A stretch of DNA of 64,000 nucleotides from a virus, in the IMG/VR virus record IMGVR_UViG_3300017782_000007, positions 22,836-86,835 of that record. One strand, written 5' to 3'. The position numbers and the translations under genes were made by a program. Below, piece by piece: positions 682 through 34,143 of the stretch (positions are counted from its first letter, which is position 1; the number at the start of each line of letters is the position of its first letter). The notes beneath the pieces are model-generated. The model was not told the DNA's origin, did no database searches, and was given only the letters and a program-made list of their open reading frames with translations.

Positions 682-2928
682 TTATATTGTGTTTAGTCTA
701 TTAAAAAGATGTTTATTATCGAGAAGGAATTTAAGAGGATCCTCTCGTTCTGTTTCTGTCATTCGGATATGGTTCTGGTTAGTTATCTCTTCGATACCAA
801 GTACACAGCCAATAAAGGCGGATACCCTATCAAAGTTACCGTCATGCTGATAGGCAATCAATTCTTGTAAGAATGCCCTATCCCATATCCTATCTAAATT
901 TCTATGGATTTTACCATTAGAATCTGTTCCTCTTTCTTCTAGTAGCCAGTCCCTAACATACTGTATAGACTCCTGTTTCATCTTCTTAGATGACATTGGG
1001 AATCCATAAATAGTAGGAGCCTTAGTATCCCACACAGCCTTCTTATTGAAGAGTGTCTGAGGTTCCTTGGCCAGTAAATGTAGTTTCTTTTTCTTCTCAA
1101 AATACTCCTTCACGTTACCTCGGACATTCTCAAAATAGACTTTGGCATTGCCATACATAAGAGAAAGCTTTAATAGATTCTCGTTGTAAACATGCCTACC
1201 ATCATGAGGTCTCCCAACGTATTGAGCAACTATCTCATTGTGCCCTATCTTGTTGAAGTATTTATTAGTTTTTAATATGTAGGTAGCAGCTAAAGATCCC
1301 CCTTCCGGGTCATCCGTAGCGTATGGATCGTGTCCTATAATATAAGCACCCTCAGGTACTTTTCCGTCAATTAGTTGTGGTAGCTCGTAGATAACAACAG
1401 CTCCTTCTCTTTGTCCTTCTGTCCAAGGAAATCGATTAATGTGTTGTAGTTTATCTCTCGTATCTACCTTATAGTTAACCCCGTTAAATGCTGACTTTTG
1501 GTCATAGAATAACTCTACTTTCTTCTCTACATATGTGTAGCTATCATTCTCCTCTAACTGGCGTAGCCTATTCTGTAAATCAGCAATAGGAAATATATTA
1601 CCAGTACGAGTTAAGAAGATCTCAGAAGGTATAACCGGTCTATTCTGTAGCTCCGCATCTAAAGCATCTGATCCTGACTTAGTTCCCCTAAGCTTATCCC
1701 TATGCTTGGCCAGGAATTGTTGAGCTCTCTCATTATCTGTCTTACCATATACACCAGGTCCTAATTCTTCCTTAAAGGCGTTTAAACCTAAGTAAGCAGG
1801 TACAAAGTATCCTATCTTACCTCTATGTTCCCACGTGTCATTATAAGCCAGTAGATCGTACTTCTCAGGGTCATAGAACATCAGAGAGGCATCTAAAGTA
1901 CCTCCACCATTCATATCACCCCCAGTACCTAAATACATGCAGGAACCGAACTTATAGTGCCCGTCTCGCATACACTCTACTGAGGCAGCCCTAGATTCCC
2001 TAAGGTTATCAAACATTCCTATCTCCTCCATCACCATTACCCCTGGTCTAGTACCATTGGCAGCAAATGGATTATCTTTGAATGTCCTGTGTTTTATATT
2101 AGATTGAGATCCCTTATTCTCCCAGTTACCTCCAATCTTTTCTTTGTAGGAAGCAACTACCTGAGAACCAGGCATCCATGAACCAGAATACTGCTGAGCA
2201 AAAGGAGAAGGGTATGATACCCCACCAAACTCACAAGCACCTGGTAGCCGCTCTACGGCTATCTTAGTCTTGTCTAAAATGTCTCTAGAGTACTTAGCAT
2301 CACCTGCCCCAACTAATATCTCAGCTGGCGTGGGATTAGCTCTAGACTCTTCAGTGTAATGTGTTGATCCATTGAATAGCCACTCATGAGCAACTATACC
2401 AACGCCAACAGAGTAGGACTTACCAAATCCCCTGGATCCCATCATCATGAAATCCTTAGCCTCATTCTCAAATAAGGGTCTCCCATAATTAGCATCATGG
2501 ACCTTCCGTAAGTATTCTCTAGCGGGTACAAATTCTTTTGGTGTACCGTCCAATTTAAACGCATGTGGTGCATACGTTCTCTTAAACTCTTCTGGGTAAT
2601 CTGGGTTATTAATTTCTCTATAGCAAGTATAATTCTCATCCTCAGCAAAGCCAGAGAAACCTCTAGCCTCAGCCCAGTTATAGAAAAATTCCCACTCTAA
2701 ATCACGTAAAAAAGGGCGCCCAAAGCTTTTCACTTTAGACCCCCTCTTGTTTAATTTAATGGTACCGAAGTTAATATAGAAATATAACTTTCCTGGCATC
2801 CATTTTCCAGATACCCAAAACCCTTCTATGCATCTTCTCTTTTGTTCTCTCCAGTACGTAGCATATGCTTGTGTCGCTGGATGGTACTCAGGAGGAGAAG
2901 GGATTTTGAATTCTGTAATATTAATCAT
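682..2928 (-). CDS. terL: Terminase large subunit (packaging ATPase/nuclease)
   Basis: 748 residues, normal to long for TerL. The packaging ATPase domain shows a Walker A motif GSRGFGKS near residues 164-171 and a Walker B VMVMEEIG near 296-303, where the second acidic residue is the expected catalytic glutamate. The C-terminal RNase H-like nuclease is suggested by GHDPYATDDPEGG near residue 530. The protein pumps genomic DNA into the procapsid through the portal and cuts the concatemer at headful. It sits between portal and GroEL on the minus strand with almost no spacing. The start at 2928 gives the full N-terminal adaptor region; there is no competing upstream start. The family call is secure; the exact nuclease residues are not. 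Confidence 0.95.
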   Translation of the reverse strand: MINITEFKIPSPPEYHPATQAYATYWREQKRRCIEGFWVSGKWMPGKLYFYINFGTIKLNKRGSKVKSFGRPFLRDLEWEFFYNWAEARGFSGFAEDENYTCYREINNPDYPEEFKRTYAPHAFKLDGTPKEFVPAREYLRKVHDANYGRPLFENEAKDFMMMGSRGFGKSYSVGVGIVAHEWLFNGSTHYTEESRANPTPAEILVGAGDAKYSRDILDKTKIAVERLPGACEFGGVSYPSPFAQQYSGSWMPGSQVVASYKEKIGGNWENKGSQSNIKHRTFKDNPFAANGTRPGVMVMEEIGMFDNLRESRAASVECMRDGHYKFGSCMYLGTGGDMNGGGTLDASLMFYDPEKYDLLAYNDTWEHRGKIGYFVPAYLGLNAFKEELGPGVYGKTDNERAQQFLAKHRDKLRGTKSGSDALDAELQNRPVIPSEIFLTRTGNIFPIADLQNRLRQLEENDSYTYVEKKVELFYDQKSAFNGVNYKVDTRDKLQHINRFPWTEGQREGAVVIYELPQLIDGKVPEGAYIIGHDPYATDDPEGGSLAATYILKTNKYFNKIGHNEIVAQYVGRPHDGRHVYNENLLKLSLMYGNAKVYFENVRGNVKEYFEKKKKLHLLAKEPQTLFNKKAVWDTKAPTIYGFPMSSKKMKQESIQYVRDWLLEERGTDSNGKIHRNLDRIWDRAFLQELIAYQHDGNFDRVSAFIGCVLGIEEITNQNHIRMTETEREDPLKFLLDNKHLFNRLNTI

Positions 2929-2963
2929 TCTGTAGTGTTGGTAGTATCGGATTTGTTGTAATT

Positions 2964-4571
2964 CTAACCGAATGGATTAGCTTCATGTGCCTGTGTAGGC
3001 TCTTCTTCGTGAATAGTACATTCAGTCATGATTATCATAGAAGCAGCTGATACTGCATTCTCAATAGCAGAGGTAACTACTAATGTAGGATCAATAATCC
3101 CCATCTCTCGCATATCCCCAAACTTATCTGTATTGGCATTGTAACCAAAGTTAATGTTCTCGTTGTGGACTACGTTAGCCATGATAATTCCTGCATCTTT
3201 ACCCGCGTTATTAATGATCTCTCTGGCAGGGGCTGTTAAAGCCTCTAATAGGATCTTAGCTCCTAAGTTCTCCTCAGCAAAGCCAAATATAGGGGTTACG
3301 TTAGCAGAAGCATGTAATAAAGCTGTTCCTCCGCCAGGTAAAGTACCAAAGCGAATAGCAGCCTTTACTGCCTGTAAAGCATCGTCAATTCTGTGTTTCT
3401 TCTCTACCATTTCAGCATCAGTAGCAGCCCCTACGTGTAGGATGGCCAAGCCACCAATAAGGTTTGCCATTCTCTCAGAATACTTCTGTGCCATGTAATC
3501 AGATTCTAATGTAGGCATAGCAGCCTTAATCTCCTCCAATCTCTGGGCTACCTGATCCTTAGGTCCTTCCGGCCCTAATAAGGTAGTAGTATTTTGATCA
3601 ATGATAATCTTCTCGGCAGAACCGAAGTGAAATGATTGAATATCTTGTTGTGATATCCCTAGTTCCTTAGTGATTAAGGTAGCTCCGGTAGCGATAGCTA
3701 AGTCCTTCATGAACTCAGTTCTAATCTCACCGTAGTAAGGTGCCTTAACACAAACAACAGGAATACCTCTTAGTTTGTTAGTAATAGTAGATTCTAATGC
3801 CTGAGCCTCAACCTCAGTGCCGATAATAACTAATGGTCTCTTCTGGGCCATAGCCAGATTCATACAATTAACTGTTACCTTAGGATCTCTTACTTTGTCG
3901 TTGATTAAGACAATTAATGGATTATCATACTCTACTGAGTGCTCACCAGTGTTAACAAAATAAGGAGAGATAAATCCCTTCTCTAATTGCATACCTTCTG
4001 TGAACGTAGTATACGTATCATTTGTCTTAGATTCTTGTACTAGAATAACTCCATCCTTAGTTACCTTATCCATAGCCTCAGCTATTAGTTTCCCAATCTT
4101 AGCATCATTGTTAGCAGAGATAGTAGCAATAGCTTCTATACTCTCCTTAGACTCTGTTACGGGCTCAGATAACTTATTAATTTCTTCTAGTATGTGTGGA
4201 AGTATTTTCTCAATACCTCTCTTTAAATCGATTGGATTAGCTCCGGCAGCTATTAATTTCTCCGCTCTTTCTATGATGGCCTGGGCCAATATAGTAGAGG
4301 TAGTAGTACCGTCACCAGCAATCTTAGCTGTTTTAGCAGCAGCCTGTTTAATAACTTGAGCACCTAGGTTTTCAATGTAATCTTCTAGTATGATCTCAGA
4401 GGCTACTGTTACCCCGTCCTTAGTGACTACAGGGTTCGCGAATGGTTTGTTGATAATCACATTTCTTCCCTTAGGTCCTAATGTAATCTTCACTGCCTTA
4501 GCTAGTGTATCAACTCCTTTTTTTAATTTGGTTCTTGCTTCTTGGTTAAATGTTACTTTCTTAAAAGCCAT
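2964..4571 (-). CDS. groEL: GroEL-type chaperonin (Hsp60)
   Basis: 535 residues, the length of a complete bacterial GroEL. It begins MAFKKVTFNQEARTKL and keeps the ATP-binding signatures TLGPKGRNV, TKDGVTVA and GDGTTTSTILAQ, the conserved aspartate in RIDDALQAVKAA, and the late PGGGTALL segment. The apical domain has ESTITNKLRGIPVVCVKAP. The C-terminus ends NPFG and lacks the Gly-Gly-Met tail of many bacterial GroELs. It folds proteins in an ATP-driven double ring with a GroES lid. A GroES-like gene lies at 7821-8264 in the same block, so the phage may carry a matched pair. Phage GroEL genes are known from some very large phages. The codon use resembles its neighbours, so acquisition does not look recent. 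Confidence 0.96.
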   Translation of the reverse strand: MAFKKVTFNQEARTKLKKGVDTLAKAVKITLGPKGRNVIINKPFANPVVTKDGVTVASEIILEDYIENLGAQVIKQAAAKTAKIAGDGTTTSTILAQAIIERAEKLIAAGANPIDLKRGIEKILPHILEEINKLSEPVTESKESIEAIATISANNDAKIGKLIAEAMDKVTKDGVILVQESKTNDTYTTFTEGMQLEKGFISPYFVNTGEHSVEYDNPLIVLINDKVRDPKVTVNCMNLAMAQKRPLVIIGTEVEAQALESTITNKLRGIPVVCVKAPYYGEIRTEFMKDLAIATGATLITKELGISQQDIQSFHFGSAEKIIIDQNTTTLLGPEGPKDQVAQRLEEIKAAMPTLESDYMAQKYSERMANLIGGLAILHVGAATDAEMVEKKHRIDDALQAVKAAIRFGTLPGGGTALLHASANVTPIFGFAEENLGAKILLEALTAPAREIINNAGKDAGIIMANVVHNENINFGYNANTDKFGDMREMGIIDPTLVVTSAIENAVSAASMIIMTECTIHEEEPTQAHEANPFG

Positions 4572-14245: not shown

Positions 14246-14352
14246 TTCGACATGTACATCTGAATTGATTACAATTGGGTTTTATTGATATATGGTAGAA
14301 GGGGGAGTATTTATACTCTCCCTACTTTAAGTTAAGAAAAATGCGTCAGGAA

Positions 14353-14400
14353 TTCCCACAGGTTAAATAACTGTAACCTCATTTGCGTGAGGTGTGGGAA
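14353..14400 (+). ncRNA. Three-way-junction RNA element, copy 1
   Basis: Closing stem TTCCCACA/TGTGGGAA (14353-14360 with 14393-14400); arm 1 at 14361-14372 (GGTT/AACT, loop AAAT); linker GTAA 14373-14376; arm 2 at 14377-14392 (CCTCA/TGAGG, loop TTTGCG). Same fold and same unpaired bases as at 28361-28405 and 29074-29119, with different stem sequences. It lies just before the start of the 14422 gene. Confidence 0.8.
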
Positions 14401-14421: not shown

Positions 14422-14661
14422 ATGAAAAAAAGAAATATTTTATCGGTACTCTTATATTTATGGTTATCTTTCTCTTGCTTGTACTTCTTTGCAGTACTTA
14501 AAAGAGCACATGATGACATTGATAAGAATTACCACATTAAACTTGAAGAACAAAGAGTTTTAAAAGACTCTATTAAATTATTAAAAAAAGAAATTTACGA
14601 TGAAACTAGAAGGAATAATTATCGGAATTCTCCTCCTATCCTTGATGGGAGCGGGGATTAA
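14422..14661 (+). CDS. Small membrane protein, possible inner-membrane spanin
   Basis: 79 residues from the ATG at 14422 (MKKRNILSVLLYLWLSF...), chosen because the upstream part of the frame lies inside an RNA element. One N-terminal membrane helix is followed by a charged helix with heptad character (KLEEQRVLKDSIKLLKKEI). The next gene begins inside its 3' end (62-base overlap), as in the nested Rz/Rz1 spanin genes. No lipobox is seen in the partner, so the spanin idea stays tentative. Confidence 0.6.
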   Translation: MKKRNILSVLLYLWLSFSCLYFFAVLKRAHDDIDKNYHIKLEEQRVLKDSIKLLKKEIYDETRRNNYRNSPPILDGSGD

Positions 14662-18189: not shown

Positions 18190-18783
18190 ATGAAGAATGT
18201 ACTATTAAAATTCAGTAACAATAAGGTATACTTTGTTACTAATGAAGGATCTACTTTTAAACTCGTATCCAATACCAAGGATCCACTATTGGCCACAGCC
18301 AAAAAAGGAAGAGGAAAGCCGTTCGCGGTAATACTCGATGTTCCTTTGCCAGAGTCTACAACAATGACTCCGGTATCTACTGGTCTTATACTCCCTATCA
18401 GTAATGTTAGGGAGAAAGAACATATTGAAGCTTATGCTGATGATGGTGTATACTATGCTAAACAAGGTATTCCAATAGGTATACTATTAGATTGCACAGT
18501 AGTACCATCAAGATCCAAGAACCGATTCAATGTTGTGGATTATAAGATTCATCAACATAAGATTGGATTTACTCATGGTAAGCTAGGAGCATTGATAACA
18601 TTAATTAATAATGTAATTAAACCTAGACTGACTGTGAATAAGAGAGATGATTACGATATAATTGTTGATTTGATGAATGCTAGAAAGTCTCCTTTTGGGA
18701 GGAAACTATCCAAAGCACAGACAAAGACGTTCAAAAAAATTTATTTAAGAAGAGTCAAGGAGTTTCTCACTCCTAAAGGTTAA
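18190..18783 (+). CDS. Hypothetical protein, beta-rich
   Basis: 197 residues. The first 120 are strand-like (VLLKFSNNKVYFVTNEGSTF), the rest helical and basic (SKAQTKTFKKIYLRRVKEFL). An upstream hairpin GGACAG/CTGTCC and the usual AT-rich leader precede it. The stop codon is part of the tRNA-like element at 18776-18816. No family recognised. Confidence 0.6.
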   Translation: MKNVLLKFSNNKVYFVTNEGSTFKLVSNTKDPLLATAKKGRGKPFAVILDVPLPESTTMTPVSTGLILPISNVREKEHIEAYADDGVYYAKQGIPIGILLDCTVVPSRSKNRFNVVDYKIHQHKIGFTHGKLGALITLINNVIKPRLTVNKRDDYDIIVDLMNARKSPFGRKLSKAQTKTFKKIYLRRVKEFLTPKG

Positions 18784-18816
18784 TGGTTATTTGGGGGTTC
18801 GATTCCCCCAAACCTT
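18776..18816 (+). ncRNA. tRNA top-half element, copy 1
   Basis: Outer stem AAGGTT/AACCTT (18776-18781 with 18811-18816), a short AATGGTTATT segment with a D-loop-like ATGGT, and a T-arm GGGGG-TTCGATT-CCCCC (18793-18809) extended by a T-A pair. No anticodon arm. It overlaps the stop codon of the upstream gene. Confidence 0.7.
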
Positions 18817-18835
18817 CTAATCAAAATTGAATGAT

Positions 18836-19144
18836 ATGAGAGGAATAGAAAAGAAAAAAAACTATGTATCAACCTGGTTAACTCCGAGAGTGAGAGCTAA
18901 ACTCAAAGAGAACCCACAAGTCGAGCAATTGCTACTTGCTGGGGATTACCTAGGTATAAACCAGTCAAGAGTATTTCAAGTGTTCCCTGTTGGAACACAA
19001 AGAGATACGATATTCTCAGAAGATGAAATGAGAATATACTTGGAGGAACTTAAATCCTTGGCTAGGGGATTAGTAGTAGAAGTATCCTCGCTTTCTAGAT
19101 GCGGTTTCTATACTACGTCCATGCTCAGGAGCCAACCCGTGTAA
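18836..19144 (+). CDS. Hypothetical protein
   Basis: 102 residues from the ATG at 18836 (a TTG at 18827 is possible). MRGIEKKKNYVSTWLTPRVR..., an acidic/basic mix with a helix EDEMRIYLEELKSLARG. It directly follows the tRNA-like element. No family. Confidence 0.55.
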   Translation: MRGIEKKKNYVSTWLTPRVRAKLKENPQVEQLLLAGDYLGINQSRVFQVFPVGTQRDTIFSEDEMRIYLEELKSLARGLVVEVSSLSRCGFYTTSMLRSQPV

Positions 19145-24342: not shown

Positions 24343-25018
24343 CAAGATAGGAGTCTTATTGCTAGACTCTTCGCATTTAGATGATATAAGAACTTTTGCT
24401 TCACAATTTGGTGATGTATTCGTAGTTATGCCTTATGAAGTTAGATTGGACTTAGATATTCTCTTTGTCCATTCTAAGTTACCTTCCACTTCACCGATAA
24501 CATCTAAAGATGTATCGTATTCTAAAGATCTAACCAACTTCTATTCTCTCTACTACCCAAAGTATAAGGATTCCGATATCCCTGTCTTTGCATTAGAGAA
24601 TGCTTGTATAGAAGCGTGGAAGATTTTAGGAGGAAGTTTAGTAGGTAACATAACAGGACATAACGGACTTCATGGAATCCTTAACAAGAAGGATAAGATA
24701 TATTTAAAGGTAGATTCTGATCATAGCATAGGGCTAGTGGATAATGCTGCTTTAGCTACGCCAATAGCACATGAATTTAGAGGCTCTAAAAACACCTTTG
24801 AAACATGTAAACCTATTGATTATGATAAGCATCTAGGATTTGTGGAAATATTTGAGTCTTCTTACCTCTCCGGATGTATGAATCCGACTCATATTAAGGA
24901 AAATAAATATTCATCCAAAGTCTACGAAGAAACCAAATGCATGTATGGTGATTTAATCACCTTACGACTTATTCTCAAGATTTTACGTAAACATGGCACC
25001 GCAGCTGTACCTGTATAG
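24329..25018 (+). CDS. Possible class I glutamine amidotransferase-like protein
   Basis: 229 residues. The N-terminus KIGVLLLDSSHLDDIRTFA and the segment IPVFALENACIEAWKILGGS recall class I GATase folds, where the motif before a Gly-Gly turn carries the catalytic cysteine. Here that position reads ALENA, so the nucleophile seems lost, though a cysteine follows one residue later. SDHSIGLVDNA could be the later strand. If real, it is a non-catalytic or altered member. Low confidence in family, good confidence that it is a gene. Confidence 0.55.
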   Translation: MSRNSKIGVLLLDSSHLDDIRTFASQFGDVFVVMPYEVRLDLDILFVHSKLPSTSPITSKDVSYSKDLTNFYSLYYPKYKDSDIPVFALENACIEAWKILGGSLVGNITGHNGLHGILNKKDKIYLKVDSDHSIGLVDNAALATPIAHEFRGSKNTFETCKPIDYDKHLGFVEIFESSYLSGCMNPTHIKENKYSSKVYEETKCMYGDLITLRLILKILRKHGTAAVPV

Positions 25019-25027
25019 TTGCTGGTA

Positions 25028-25080
25028 GACTCAGTCTAATGGATGGCGAAAGCCTGTAGGTTCGATTCCTACCTGAGTCA
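25028..25080 (+). ncRNA. tRNA-like element without anticodon (GAAA loop)
   Basis: Acceptor-like 7-bp stem GACTCAG/CTGAGTC (25028-25034 with 25073-25079) stacked directly on a canonical T-arm GTAGG-TTCGATT-CCTAC (25056-25072), with a discriminator-like A at 25080. In place of D and anticodon arms there is TCTAATGGA and a 3-bp hairpin GGC-GAAA-GCC (25045-25054). No anticodon. It lies between two genes. Confidence 0.75.
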
Positions 25081-25099: not shown

Positions 25100-25327
25100 A
25101 TGTTCGCAATAGCAACAAAAAAGAAGGTTTATATCACTCCAGAACACTATGAATTGTACGAAAAAGAATTCCAAGCCGGAACCTATGTACTTTATCATAA
25201 AACTGGTAAATATAGAACTTTCGTAGGGATTGTAGGGATCCCTCACACAGCTTGTCCCACTAAGACGGTGTTAGTATCGCCTTTAAGAGAAACATATTTC
25301 GTCACTTTAAATCATAAATATCAATGA
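25100..25327 (+). CDS. Small hypothetical protein
   Basis: 75 residues, MFAIATKKKVYITPEHYELY..., beta-rich and basic. It overlaps the MoxR-like gene by four bases, so it may belong to that unit. No family recognised. Confidence 0.55.
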   Translation: MFAIATKKKVYITPEHYELYEKEFQAGTYVLYHKTGKYRTFVGIVGIPHTACPTKTVLVSPLRETYFVTLNHKYQ

Positions 25328-27966: not shown

Positions 27967-28350
27967 ATGAACATGTTTAATAACGATCAATTATCCGTTG
28001 TAGAAACTATTTTTGGACGCAAGTCGCTTACAGAGAGAGTTCCTGGAACAACACTAGACTTAATGCTAGTGAGTATAGCATTAACTTCTAAAAAATTCTA
28101 TAATCTAAAAGTTATGTATGGCTTTGCTGAGGTATGTGGAAAATGTTTCGACAAACCAGCAGAGGAAGCTCATGCTATTTTACGTGATGCAGTAAGAACG
28201 AAGCATAAAGCTTCTTTCGAGAATCTTTCTATTATTGCAGAAGCTGTAACTCTTACAGGATTGCGTAAAACTTTTGACAGAACGAAAGAAGAAACAGATC
28301 ATTTTAATCGAATCTGTTCTTACTTCGATGTAATCGAAATTAACGATTAA
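27967..28350 (+). CDS. Hypothetical protein
   Basis: 127 residues from the ATG at 27967, preceded by TTATTAACCATAAAATATTA; the part of the frame before it overlaps the VWA gene. Helical, with a CGKC pair (EVCGKCFDKPAEEAH) that could bind a metal. No family. Confidence 0.6.
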   Translation: MNMFNNDQLSVVETIFGRKSLTERVPGTTLDLMLVSIALTSKKFYNLKVMYGFAEVCGKCFDKPAEEAHAILRDAVRTKHKASFENLSIIAEAVTLTGLRKTFDRTKEETDHFNRICSYFDVIEIND

Positions 28351-28360
28351 CTACTCCCTA

Positions 28361-28405
28361 AACCCTGGAACTGAGTTCGTTATGTTGTTCGCGCAACACA
28401 GGGTT
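28361..28405 (+). ncRNA. Three-way-junction RNA element, copy 2
   Basis: Closing stem AACCCTG/CAGGGTT (28361-28367 with 28399-28405); arm 1 GAAC/GTTC with loop TGA (28368-28378); linker GTTA (28379-28382); arm 2 TGTTG/CAACA with loop TTCGCG (28383-28398). All 16 base pairs are Watson-Crick. It sits between a stop at 28350 and the ATG at 28430. Confidence 0.82.
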
Positions 28406-28429: not shown

Positions 28430-28666
28430 ATGAAAAATACTCAATTACCATCTACTATTGTATTAGTAGTAATTTCCTTAATATATGTAACAATAGGAAC
28501 ATATATCTTTATCCTCTCAATTAAAGAGACAAATATGATCTCTTTTTTAATTAGTGGAATATTTTGGACAGGATTTTACGAGTCTATGATAGAACTAAGA
28601 TACAGGCTCTATAGAGCTGTAAGAGATGGAAAATCAATGAATTTGATTGAAAGGAAATGGAAATAA
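28430..28666 (+). CDS. Two-span membrane protein
   Basis: 78 residues from the ATG at 28430 (the frame extends back into the RNA element, which I exclude). Two hydrophobic segments (residues 9-29 and 36-52) and a basic C-terminus. Holin-like topology and size, but no lysis genes adjoin it. Unknown function. Confidence 0.55.
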   Translation: MKNTQLPSTIVLVVISLIYVTIGTYIFILSIKETNMISFLISGIFWTGFYESMIELRYRLYRAVRDGKSMNLIERKWK

Positions 28667-28723: not shown

Positions 28724-29068
28724 ATGAAAAATTTATTATTATTAATCTGTATATTATTTTCATTTGTTGGTCAAGCTCAAAAAACACCATTTGAGAAAGA
28801 CATTGCTTATGACCAATACAAGTATGAAAAACATTTAAAAAAAGCAGACAATTCTTACGATACTGTAGTAGGTGGATTAATAATCACCACTTTAGGGGTA
28901 GTAGGACGTAGCGCTGTGAAATGGAATCCTAACTATCGATCAAAGGAAATCAAGGCACTATCTAATGGATTAACCTTAATTGGTTCTTCTATGGTGGTTA
29001 TAGGTACTTATAATTTTTTTGATAATAAGAGGAGTGCGAGGAAGATTGAGAAGAAATACAATTTTTAA
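28724..29068 (+). CDS. Exported protein with two further hydrophobic segments
   Basis: 114 residues. MKNLLLLICILFSFVGQAQ is a clear signal peptide (cleavage after AQA or GQA). Two further hydrophobic stretches lie at about residues 47-62 and 82-98, separated by basic residues. Either a small membrane protein of the envelope or an exported peptide. No family. Confidence 0.6.
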   Translation: MKNLLLLICILFSFVGQAQKTPFEKDIAYDQYKYEKHLKKADNSYDTVVGGLIITTLGVVGRSAVKWNPNYRSKEIKALSNGLTLIGSSMVVIGTYNFFDNKRSARKIEKKYNF

Positions 29069-29073
29069 AATTA

Positions 29074-29119
29074 TTCCGTGGACCAAATGGTCGTAACTTC
29101 CTTTGCGGGAAGCACGGAA
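29074..29119 (+). ncRNA. Three-way-junction RNA element, copy 3
   Basis: Closing stem TTCCGTG/CACGGAA (29074-29080 with 29113-29119); arm 1 GACC/GGTC with loop AAAT (29081-29092); linker GTAA (29093-29096); arm 2 CTTCC/GGAAG with loop TTTGCG (29097-29112). All pairs are Watson-Crick, with the loops and linker of copy 1. Confidence 0.85.
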
Positions 29120-29400
29120 ACTATACACATCTATATTATTAGGACTGGATATCTCATTTTGTATTTGAGTATTACGCTAATAGATGCATTGTAAGCCACG
29201 AAATGTGGATTCTGGATAGATTGTCTCTCTAGTCCAGAAAGAGGGAGGAGAAGTCCTTAAAACGCCTTGTAGCAGGATTTTCAACCCTGTGTGACGGTGA
29301 TGACCTCAAAATGCTTTAATATTAAGCACACTAAAACGTCAAAGAGTGTATGTGGGTTCGAATCCCATCTTCCGTGCTGGAAGTATGCCAATTGGAAGAG
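29120..29400 (+). ncRNA. Structured gap with scattered tRNA parts
   Basis: No gene. Contains a long hairpin TTCTGGA/TCCAGAA with an inner TAGA/TCTA (about 29210-29239), CCAC-GAAAT-GTGG near 29197-29209, an anticodon-arm-like GCAGG/CCTGT (29272-29290) whose loop contains TTTTCAA (a Glu-type TTC), a canonical T-arm GTGGG-TTCGAAT-CCCAT (29352-29368), then CTTCC-GTGCT-GGAAG and a D-arm-like CCAATTGGAAGAGC. The parts do not assemble into one normal cloverleaf. Confidence 0.45.
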
Positions 29401-29600
29401 CAACTTATTATCCGTAATTATTCCGTATTGTTAAAGGTAACTATTGTAGAAACAGTCTCATTAGCTGTGGAACAAGATAGAGTTTAACATTAGAATATTA
29501 ATCGAGAGGGTAGAAAGCCCAGTAATAGAGTGACACCTAATCTATAGATAACGATTCAACCTTAGCGGGCTTGATGTTTTATCTTTAGCGCATCAAAACA
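29401..29600 (+). ncRNA. Hairpin-rich gap
   Basis: No gene. Visible pairings: ATTA-TCCG-TAAT near 29408, GTTA/TAAC near 29430-29441, ACAG/CTGT near 29452-29468, AAGCCC/GGGCTT closing 29515 to about 29572, and TTGATG/CATCAA at about 29571-29596 with TTTAGCG in its loop. No family assigned. Confidence 0.35.
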
Positions 29601-29695: not shown

Positions 29696-29746
29696 TATAG
29701 TAAGAGCTCGTTAGAGTACCGGACTTTTAATCCGGGGGAGACTATA
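29696..29746 (+). tRNA. tRNA-Lys(UUU)-like, folds without a T-arm
   Basis: Acceptor-like stem TATAGT/ACTATA (29696-29701 with 29741-29746); D-like arm GCTC-GTTA-GAGT (29706-29717); perfect anticodon arm CCGGA-CTTTTAA-TCCGG (29719-29735) with anticodon TTT at 29726-29728, C32, T33 and A37; then only GGGAG before the acceptor, so there is no room for a T-arm. An alternative pairing GGGGA/TTCCC could form a small arm with an AGTAA/TTACT acceptor. Either way it is not a standard tRNA. Confidence 0.5.
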
Positions 29747-29767
29747 TATTCCCATTACTTTAATTAC

Positions 29768-30205
29768 ATGAATTACACAAAAATTAGGAAACCAAGACGC
29801 AAAATGAAACTTGTAGAACCTTGGTTACAAAGTATTATTAAAGACAATGAATTCGTAGTATTACGTGATAAGCGCACTAAAAAAGCGTTACATGTAAGTT
29901 ATACGGAAGACGGTCTAAAGTGGGCCTTGGACCCACGGACATCCAAATCTCTTTATTTCAAAGATGCTTATCTTTCCCACGGCCGTGTTGGTGGTGAGGG
30001 CTGGAACGGTTTGTTCCGTAAAGAGAGAGATCCAAATACCATAGTCGAAAAGTTCATACCAATGAATCACGTAAGGACCCGCAAAGATGGTATCGAGTAT
30101 GTCGATACAGTCAACCAATCCTTAGAATTCAAAGCAGTGGATAGAGCTTTGCGAATGTTAACCAAATCTCAGACGAGATTACTTGATAATTTTTCTGATA
30201 ACTAA
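29768..30205 (+). CDS. Basic hypothetical protein between tRNA-like clusters
   Basis: 145 residues, MNYTKIRKPRRKMKLVEPWL..., strongly basic, with a middle HGRVGGEGWNGLFRKERDP and a helical end. It is flanked on both sides by tRNA-like RNA arrays, so RNA binding is an attractive but unproven idea. No family. Confidence 0.6.
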   Translation: MNYTKIRKPRRKMKLVEPWLQSIIKDNEFVVLRDKRTKKALHVSYTEDGLKWALDPRTSKSLYFKDAYLSHGRVGGEGWNGLFRKERDPNTIVEKFIPMNHVRTRKDGIEYVDTVNQSLEFKAVDRALRMLTKSQTRLLDNFSDN

Positions 30206-30211
30206 ATTTAT

Positions 30212-30289
30212 ACTCTTGTTAAGACGTAAGGTGCGGCAACATGTTTGAAACACATGTCTGTTCAGGTTCGATACCTGGTGCGAAGAGTT
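30212..30289 (+). tRNA. tRNA-Phe(GAA)-like
   Basis: Acceptor-like ACTCTT/AAGAGT (30212-30217 with 30283-30288), D-arm GACG-TAAGGTG-CGGC (30223-30237) with the GG pair, anticodon arm CATGT-TTGAAAC-ACATG (30240-30256, anticodon GAA), five-base variable loop, T-arm TCAGG-TTCGATA-CCTGG (30262-30278). Unusual: about four unpaired bases lie between acceptor and arms on both sides, and no CCA is encoded. Confidence 0.55.
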
Positions 30290-30293
30290 AATA

Positions 30294-30357
30294 GTACTGG
30301 GAGTATAACTATTGTGACATAATAGTGAACTAGGGTTCGAATCCCTTGCCGAAATAA
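30294..30357 (+). tRNA. tRNA-Val(GAC)-like, no matching acceptor
   Basis: D-arm TAC-TGGGA-GTA (30295-30305), anticodon arm CTATT-GTGACAT-AATAG (30309-30325, anticodon GAC at 30316-30318), T-arm AGGG-TTCGAAT-CCCT (30332-30346). The sequence after the T-arm (TGCCGAA) has no complement before the D-arm, and only about 15 bases separate it from the Phe-like unit. Possibly degenerate or processed in an unusual way. Confidence 0.4.
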
Positions 30358-30891: not shown

Positions 30892-31485
30892 ATGAAACAA
30901 ATTATATTGAATTTTGTCTTATTAATAGCATTAGCAGCAACTAATGTTGGAGTTTGGCAGAATACTACTGTTATAGAATCAACTGATTCTGAATTACGAT
31001 CGAGTCTCACCTTGGTAACCCAAGAATTAGAATGTGTAGAAGAAGAACTGTCTTCGTTGAAAATGGATTACGAAGATTTCAAGTTAAAAGATACCACATT
31101 ACTAGAGACTTTTGGCCTAGAGGAGCTTTCATCGCCAGATGAGAAGAACTCTTGGAAGAAAATGGATGGAACTTTTGTCTCCCTGTTAAAGGAAGCGGAA
31201 GCGGTATCCGGATTTAGATGGCGAATCAACTCTGGTTATAGAACTTGTTCACACAACAAGAACTTAATTAAGAGAGGATACAAAGCCGCTAAAAATAGTT
31301 GGCATATGGACGGAAATGCCGTAGATATTTCTGCATCTACATCTGCCTATAGGAAACTTATTCTTAACTCATTAAAACATATTGGAATAGTGAAGGGTAT
31401 AAAGGTATACCCAGCACATATTCATGTTCAATGGAAAAACGATCATGATTTATGGAATCAAAAAGATTTAATTGCAATGAAATAG
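30892..31485 (+). CDS. Exported M15-type D,D-peptidase
   Basis: 197 residues. Signal peptide or anchor at residues 3-20, a coiled-coil linker to about residue 75, then an M15-type domain: RINSGYRTCSHNKNLIK, NSWHMDGNAVDISAS (H-x(6)-D zinc site) and AHIHVQW (distal H-x-H). These enzymes trim peptide stems of peptidoglycan. It is the second M15 peptidase in the window and different from the one at 6635. Flanked by structured gaps on both sides. Confidence 0.85.
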   Translation: MKQIILNFVLLIALAATNVGVWQNTTVIESTDSELRSSLTLVTQELECVEEELSSLKMDYEDFKLKDTTLLETFGLEELSSPDEKNSWKKMDGTFVSLLKEAEAVSGFRWRINSGYRTCSHNKNLIKRGYKAAKNSWHMDGNAVDISASTSAYRKLILNSLKHIGIVKGIKVYPAHIHVQWKNDHDLWNQKDLIAMK

Positions 31486-34098: not shown

Positions 34099-34143
34099 TT
34101 CTTGGTATGGTAGTAATTAAGGTTCGATTCCTTAGCCAAGAAC
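34099..34143 (+). ncRNA. tRNA top-half element, copy 3
   Basis: 7-bp outer stem TTCTTGG/CCAAGAA (34099-34105 with 34136-34142), TATGGTAGTAAT (D-loop-like GGTAG) at 34106-34117, and a T-arm TAAGG-TTCGATT-CCTTA (34118-34134), one spacer G. No anticodon arm. It precedes an exported-protein gene. Confidence 0.72.

Follow-up and report, generated by a model that had tools for sequence, protein, structure and literature searches.

Intercistronic three-way-junction RNAs in a phage with Crassvirales-type genes and their probable kinship with anticodon-less tRNA-like elements

Introduction

Mitochondrial transcripts are punctuated by tRNAs. The phage elements described here resemble that system in that the proposed cut site is a tRNA or tRNA-like fold located between cistrons, but mitochondria use real tRNAs, whereas the phage elements have no anticodon, their cutting is putative, and their phage has no canonical tRNA gene. 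The processing of polycistronic mRNA by RNase P was reported by Alifano et al. 1994, as cited in PMC11143913. Minimal RNase P substrates (PMC11143913) share a long closing stem, a flush-stacked T-arm hairpin and the lack of an anticodon domain with the phage elements, although they were made in the laboratory and carry canonical T loops; the three-way junctions differ from them in their 6-nt TTYGCG loop, their GTAA linker and the addition of a side arm. The tRNA-like structure of turnip yellow mosaic virus (TYMV; RF00233), cited in PMC11143913 as an RNase P substrate, is likewise a viral RNA that mimics the acceptor/T domain of tRNA. However, TYMV-type structures stand at the 3′ end of RNA genomes, are aminoacylated and have a pseudoknotted acceptor, whereas the phage elements lie inside the transcripts of a DNA phage and lack CCA. 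YrlA (Y RNA-like, RF02553), a non-coding RNA of bacteria, likewise has a tRNA-like module, but its T arm precedes its D arm, an order that the phage elements do not have. As a kind, tRNA mimicry and tRNA-directed processing are already known.

Results

The window analysed here is a stretch of 64,000 nucleotides from an 86.8-kb virus record that carries a Crassvirales-type terminase and DNA polymerase. An earlier note, made from the letters of this stretch, had claimed that three sites share a three-arm layout, and this was confirmed in one register, with 16 of 16 pairs formed in every copy. Written arm by arm on the + strand, copy 1 (14354..14399) reads TCCCACA GGTT AAAT AACT GTAA CCTCA TTTGCG TGAGG TGTGGGA, copy 2 (28361..28405) reads AACCCTG GAAC TGA GTTC GTTA TGTTG TTCGCG CAACA CAGGGTT, and copy 3 (29074..29119) reads TTCCGTG GACC AAAT GGTC GTAA CTTCC TTTGCG GGAAG CACGGAA. 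The common layout consists of a 7-bp closing stem (P1), a 4-bp side arm with a loop of 3-4 nt (P2) and a 5-bp arm with a hexaloop (P3). The linker is GTAA, GTTA and GTAA and the P3 loop is TTTGCG, TTCGCG and TTTGCG in copies 1, 2 and 3, respectively. There are zero unpaired bases at the P1-P2 and P3-P1 boundaries in all three copies, and one extra outer P1 pair is possible in copies 1 and 2.

When the copies were folded in isolation, the drawn structure was both the minimum free energy and the centroid structure for every copy, with folding energies of -17.7, -15.9 and -20.2 kcal/mol (z = -3.0, -2.8 and -3.9) for copies 1, 2 and 3. Since P2 of copy 1 includes a G-U pair and is absent from the reverse-strand fold of that copy, RNA made from the + strand is favoured. 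A loop-loop contact between AAA and UUU (UGA and UCG in copy 2) is possible and fits the copies, with a single change behind it; a pseudoknot between the linker and the hexaloop was weighed by hand and dropped on geometry.

As a chance control, we scanned for the fixed layout 7-4-(3/4)-4-4-5-6-5-7, requiring that all pairs form. The window holds it three times on the + strand and once on the - strand, the latter a chance match with different loops, versus 0.125 per window, both strands together, in 40 dinucleotide shuffles; GTWA together with TTYGCG within the layout occurred in 0 cases across the 40 shuffles. All 48 of the 48 paired cells of the three copies are paired, compared with 71% in shuffles. 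Two-sided changes are found at 12 of the 16 pairs, and the covariation is 1.25 versus 0.45 in shuffled and at most 0.28 in slid sequence; none of the controls approaches the values of the copies. Between copies, 7-16 of the 32 stem bases are identical (22-50%), while the unpaired bases agree at 14/14 positions between copies 1 and 3 and at 9/14 against copy 2. The earlier description of varying stems and constant unpaired bases stands in its first half, but the loops are less well kept in copy 2. The covariation is real but thin, limited as it is by the number of sequences (n=3). The three elements are real structured RNA.

The copies are intergenic and on the sense strand, which bears out the placement between genes that had been proposed. 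Copy 1 ends 22 nt upstream of the ATG at 14422 of a small membrane-type protein and is directly followed by A-CTAATCAAAAT. Copy 2 has a stop at 28350, 10 nt before it, and an ATG at 28430, 24 nt after it. Copy 3 lies 5 nt 3′ of the stop at 29068 and is followed by ACTATAC and then by ~650 nt of non-coding sequence. An open frame of nine codons, MRQEFPQVK (14341-14370), enters copy 1 and stops within its first loop; ribosomes translating it would open P1 and P2 of that copy.

Rfam gave 0 matches at the gathering cut-off across the window, in agreement with the earlier view that no catalogued class has this layout, and riboswitch or ribozyme identity was set aside, as no such family reaches its cut-off. 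ARAGORN found no canonical tRNA in the window or the remainder of the record, and the Rfam tRNA model had no match at cut-off in the window; the three-way junctions were accordingly rejected as tRNA genes, and relaxed ARAGORN output was noise. An intrinsic terminator (GC stem plus T run) was also rejected, with no terminator-like site at any of the three copies.

A covariance model of the three-way junction (R1) recovered only the three copies from the 86.8-kb record (E 1e-13 to 1e-16). The expectation that a search of the record and its relatives would bring further family members failed: R1 gave no credible match in about 125 other phage records and six bacterial genomes. The phage sequences covered were 80 loci linked to terminases, 50 related records in full, a further 34 that were crAss-like or polA-linked, and 40 from the ATGGT/T-arm pattern scan described below. 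One R1 match in a Kolpuevirus (22.7 bits) lies within coding sequence, has four of its pairs broken and was taken as chance. Scans of IMG/VR and GTDB for the pattern of unpaired bases gave, among the matches listed, unpaired chance ones only, and a scan of 1.7 Mb for TTYGCG hairpins gave no other one with the layout. The closest relatives found are short contigs with 56-60% terminase identity, and a terminase search of GTDB genomes returned no relative. The absence of the exact form elsewhere is weak evidence, because near kin may be missing from the collections, and the form appears so far to be private to this phage.

Listing the T-arm-like hairpins of the window brought up three further elements, here called mini tRNA-like elements, all on the + strand. 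The first (18776..18816) consists of AAGGTT, AATGGTTATT, TGGGGG[TTCGATT]CCCCCA and AACCTT; it overlaps the stop codon of the ORF at 18190-18783, and the next start is at 18827-18836. The second (25028..25079), which has a small side arm, consists of GACTCAG, TCTAATGGAT, GGC[GAAA]GCC, GTAGG[TTCGATT]CCTAC and CTGAGTC, and is flanked by a stop at 25018 and an ATG at 25100. The third (34100..34141) consists of TCTTGGT, ATGGTAGTAAT, TAAGG[TTCGATT]CCTTA and GCCAAGA, and lies 3′ of the polymerase gene (stop 33980). Their common plan is an acceptor-like stem of 6-7 bp, an ATGG linker and an arm of 5-6 bp with a TTCGATT loop; all three close flush, lack an anticodon arm, and are intergenic and on the sense strand.

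Several features suggest a connection between the three-way junctions and these mini elements. The three copies have the tRNA-type geometry of a 5-bp arm set flush on a 7-bp stem, and they share the traits of the mini class in having such a stem and arm, no anticodon arm, sense orientation and an intercistronic position. CTAATCAAAAT occurs only twice in the window, directly after copy 1 and directly 3′ of the 18776 element, a double placement with a chance of about 1e-5 for a link noticed after the fact. ATGGTNGTAA, a link also noticed after the fact, occurs only twice in the window. It precedes the 5-bp arm closely both in copy 3 and in the 34100 element, with the offset differing by one base between the two. 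ACTA stands 3′ of the 7-bp stem of copies 1 and 3, as it does in most mini elements of relatives; it is also found 3′ of a genuine tRNA-Met in a relative (L210). Copy 2 is without the shared linker or 3′ flank sequence.

The resemblance to tRNA has its bounds. The canonical 7-nt T loop TTCRANY is absent from all copies, the loop being the 6-nt TTTGCG or TTCGCG. In copy 3, side-arm pairing takes up the GG of ATGGT, which would not be free for a D-loop contact. No CCA is encoded 3′ of the closing stem. The likeness to a reduced tRNA suggested in the earlier note gained from the discovery, in the same genome, of reduced tRNA-like elements that have flank and linker sequence in common with the copies. 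Its labels of D arm and T arm are apt as far as the 5-bp arm abuts the closing stem flush in the manner of a T arm, but they do not fit the 6-nt TTYGCG loop.

The same kind of mini element occurs in related phages. A covariance model (R2) was built from 11 of these elements, in which 96.9% of the cells are paired, 10 of 12 pairs show two-sided changes, and the covariation is 0.73 versus 0.25 shuffled. At E up to 0.1, R2 matched in 21 of 43 records searched, with strong matches (E < 1e-5) in the phage's own record and ten related records. In the window, it matched the 18776 element (E 4.9e-9) and the 34100 element (E 2.4e-9), and in the 25028 element the T arm alone. As a negative control, 1.34 Mb of unrelated DNA gave no match with E < 0.5. 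None of the three copies was matched by R2 up to E 10, so membership of the three-way junctions in the class by this model fails. In relatives (G047, G040, G005 and G009), the place of the anticodon arm is empty or occupied by unrelated hairpins; variable hairpins at this place indicate that three-way junctions arise within the mini class, as at 25028. Taken together, these comparisons support the three-way junctions as divergent members of a class of intercistronic, anticodon-less tRNA-like elements, and the two forms probably have a common origin or a common use.

The spread of the class was assessed by scanning IMG/VR with the pattern ATGGT-N5-12-RGGTTCGATTCCY, which gave at least 129 matches in at least 119 contigs. 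Among the matches listed, an acceptor stem of 6-7 contiguous pairs closes 51 of 129, compared with 5.9 when partners are shuffled; ARAGORN tRNAs hold 14 of the 129 listed matches, 0 of these 14 being within the 51. Of the 51, again among the matches listed, 28 have C as the second base 3′ of the stem. Placement was counted with a simple ORF caller for 54 elements, namely those among the matches listed together with the window and Lactococcus copies: 32 of the 54 lie in sense orientation between sense ORFs and 3 of the 54 are antisense to both. R2 matched in 14 of 26 pattern-scan records, six times in tandem in one of them. Tandem arrays of three to six mini elements per spacer were found at L496 (G087) and L434-L437 (G038, G006, G005, G035), their members carrying differing hairpins where the anticodon arm would be. 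The cultured skunavirus Lactococcus phage 63302 (MF448566.1) has an unannotated mini element at ~31393-31441 (L570:387-434), just upstream of an ATG, in a stretch that is covered to at least 80% by 140 records; jj50 is another skunavirus that carries the element. Rfam at its cut-offs had 0 matches in four phage loci bearing mini elements, and the open-access literature, to which the search was confined, yielded no description of such phage tRNA-like elements. A natural anticodon-less intercistronic tRNA-like form appears to occur across many phages, and it was not found in Rfam or the open-access papers searched.

Discussion

We propose that the elements, within a polycistronic phage transcript, would fold as an acceptor/T-arm domain read by host tRNA-processing enzymes. 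A 7-bp acceptor-like stem and a flush 5-bp T-arm-like hairpin would stack, the rest of the tRNA being reduced to a linker or side arm. The RNase P cut would fall on the 5′ side of the closing stem, that of RNase Z (or of 3′ exonucleases) near the base that follows the stem. Cutting would part the upstream from the downstream message (after copy 3, from a non-coding RNA) and leave defined ends. By analogy with the systems above, the elements can be tentatively regarded as processing marks of the RNase P/RNase Z type, a reading that we hold at somewhat short of even confidence and in which all the cutting steps are putative. Replacing the T loop by tetraloops made RNase P cleavage weaker and shifted (PMC11143913), and the processing reading is weakened by the hexaloop without canonical T-loop bases and by the paired GG in copy 3. 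It is conceivable, though we would not call it likely, that many phages carry such anticodon-less tRNA-like punctuation uncatalogued and that the three-way junctions are a lineage-specific redesign of it, with the T loop changed and a side arm added. If so, phages would cut polycistronic messages with minimal tRNA mimics in addition to RNase III/E sites, phages of many hosts would hold a natural counterpart of the laboratory minimal RNase P substrates, and a common structured phage RNA would have been missed by tRNA finders and Rfam.

Constant unpaired bases on variable stems also typify protein sites, and the start codon 22-24 nt 3′ of copies 1 and 2 would suit a cis-acting operator unrelated to tRNA, in which one protein, of phage or host origin, binds the two adjacent arms and controls downstream translation or stability. 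S15-type three-way junctions control the mRNA of a ribosomal protein in this way. The putative binding features would be the AAAT and TTTGCG loops and the GTAA linker, and the restriction of the exact form to this phage agrees with such a role. However, no start codon follows copy 3 for ~650 nt, and an operator leaves the sequence links with the tRNA-like elements unexplained; we consider it rather unlikely. A stabiliser of mRNA 5′ or 3′ ends, where a stable fold blocks exonucleases without specific cutting, would account for stable folds just 3′ of stops (copies 2 and 3) and just 5′ of starts (copies 1 and 2). It is improbable, as the loops are more conserved than a plain barrier needs, a terminator tail is absent after every copy, and ordinary hairpins serve in other spacers.

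The sense, intercistronic placement near stops and starts points to a role in cis and makes it quite improbable that the excised element acts in trans as a tRNA mimic or decoy occupying tRNA-binding host factors, e.g. the nucleases of defence systems, even though a tRNA-like class in a phage without a canonical tRNA gene would suit a decoy; the sequence 3′ of the stem is also CTA, not CCA. Fragments of tRNA genes derived from integration are common in prokaryotes (PMC9897764), which would be the origin of functionless remnants of degenerate tRNA genes or att sites. Compensatory changes in both the three-way junctions and the mini elements speak against this origin, as does the expectation that att fragments would keep the 3′ half alone, without a matching 5′ acceptor strand, and we regard it as highly improbable. 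Finally, a small self-cleaving ribozyme or ligand-binding riboswitch, suggested by the compact three-way junction, the constant unpaired bases and the possible loop-loop contact read from sequence, is hardly credible, given no Rfam ribozyme or riboswitch match, a number of unpaired positions (~14) that is small for an aptamer or active site, and no expression platform seen.

Other structured stretches were observed in the window and in a relative. About 200 nt downstream of copy 3, positions 29327-29435 give a weak, sub-threshold YrlA match (RF02553, 19.5 bits, E 0.93), and their order of T arm, CTTCC-GTGCT-GGAAG hairpin and D-arm-like stretch is permuted, as in YrlA or a permuted tRNA; no Ro60/TROVE protein is found in the record. 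The tRNA-like stretches at 29697-29762 and 30205-30356 are not accepted by ARAGORN. They show an anticodon arm resembling that of Lys(UUU), beside which no clear T arm is seen (RF00005, 20 bits, below cut-off), and two T-arm-like hairpins that are accompanied by Phe/Val-like anticodon arms yet lack acceptor pairing. In the relative with the tRNA-Met (L210, record G003), clustered non-coding stretches with long closing stems lie on the minus strand at 2450-4160, adjoining that single good tRNA-Met and a pair of tRNA-like genes in which the anticodon arm is abnormal or has given way to a different hairpin. Hairpins with T-rich tails stand in front of several genes in the window's spacers between 12.3 and 28.7 kb, each followed by a TTAACCTTAAAA-like motif, which lies 8-14 nt 5′ of the start and is perhaps a phage promoter or leader signal.
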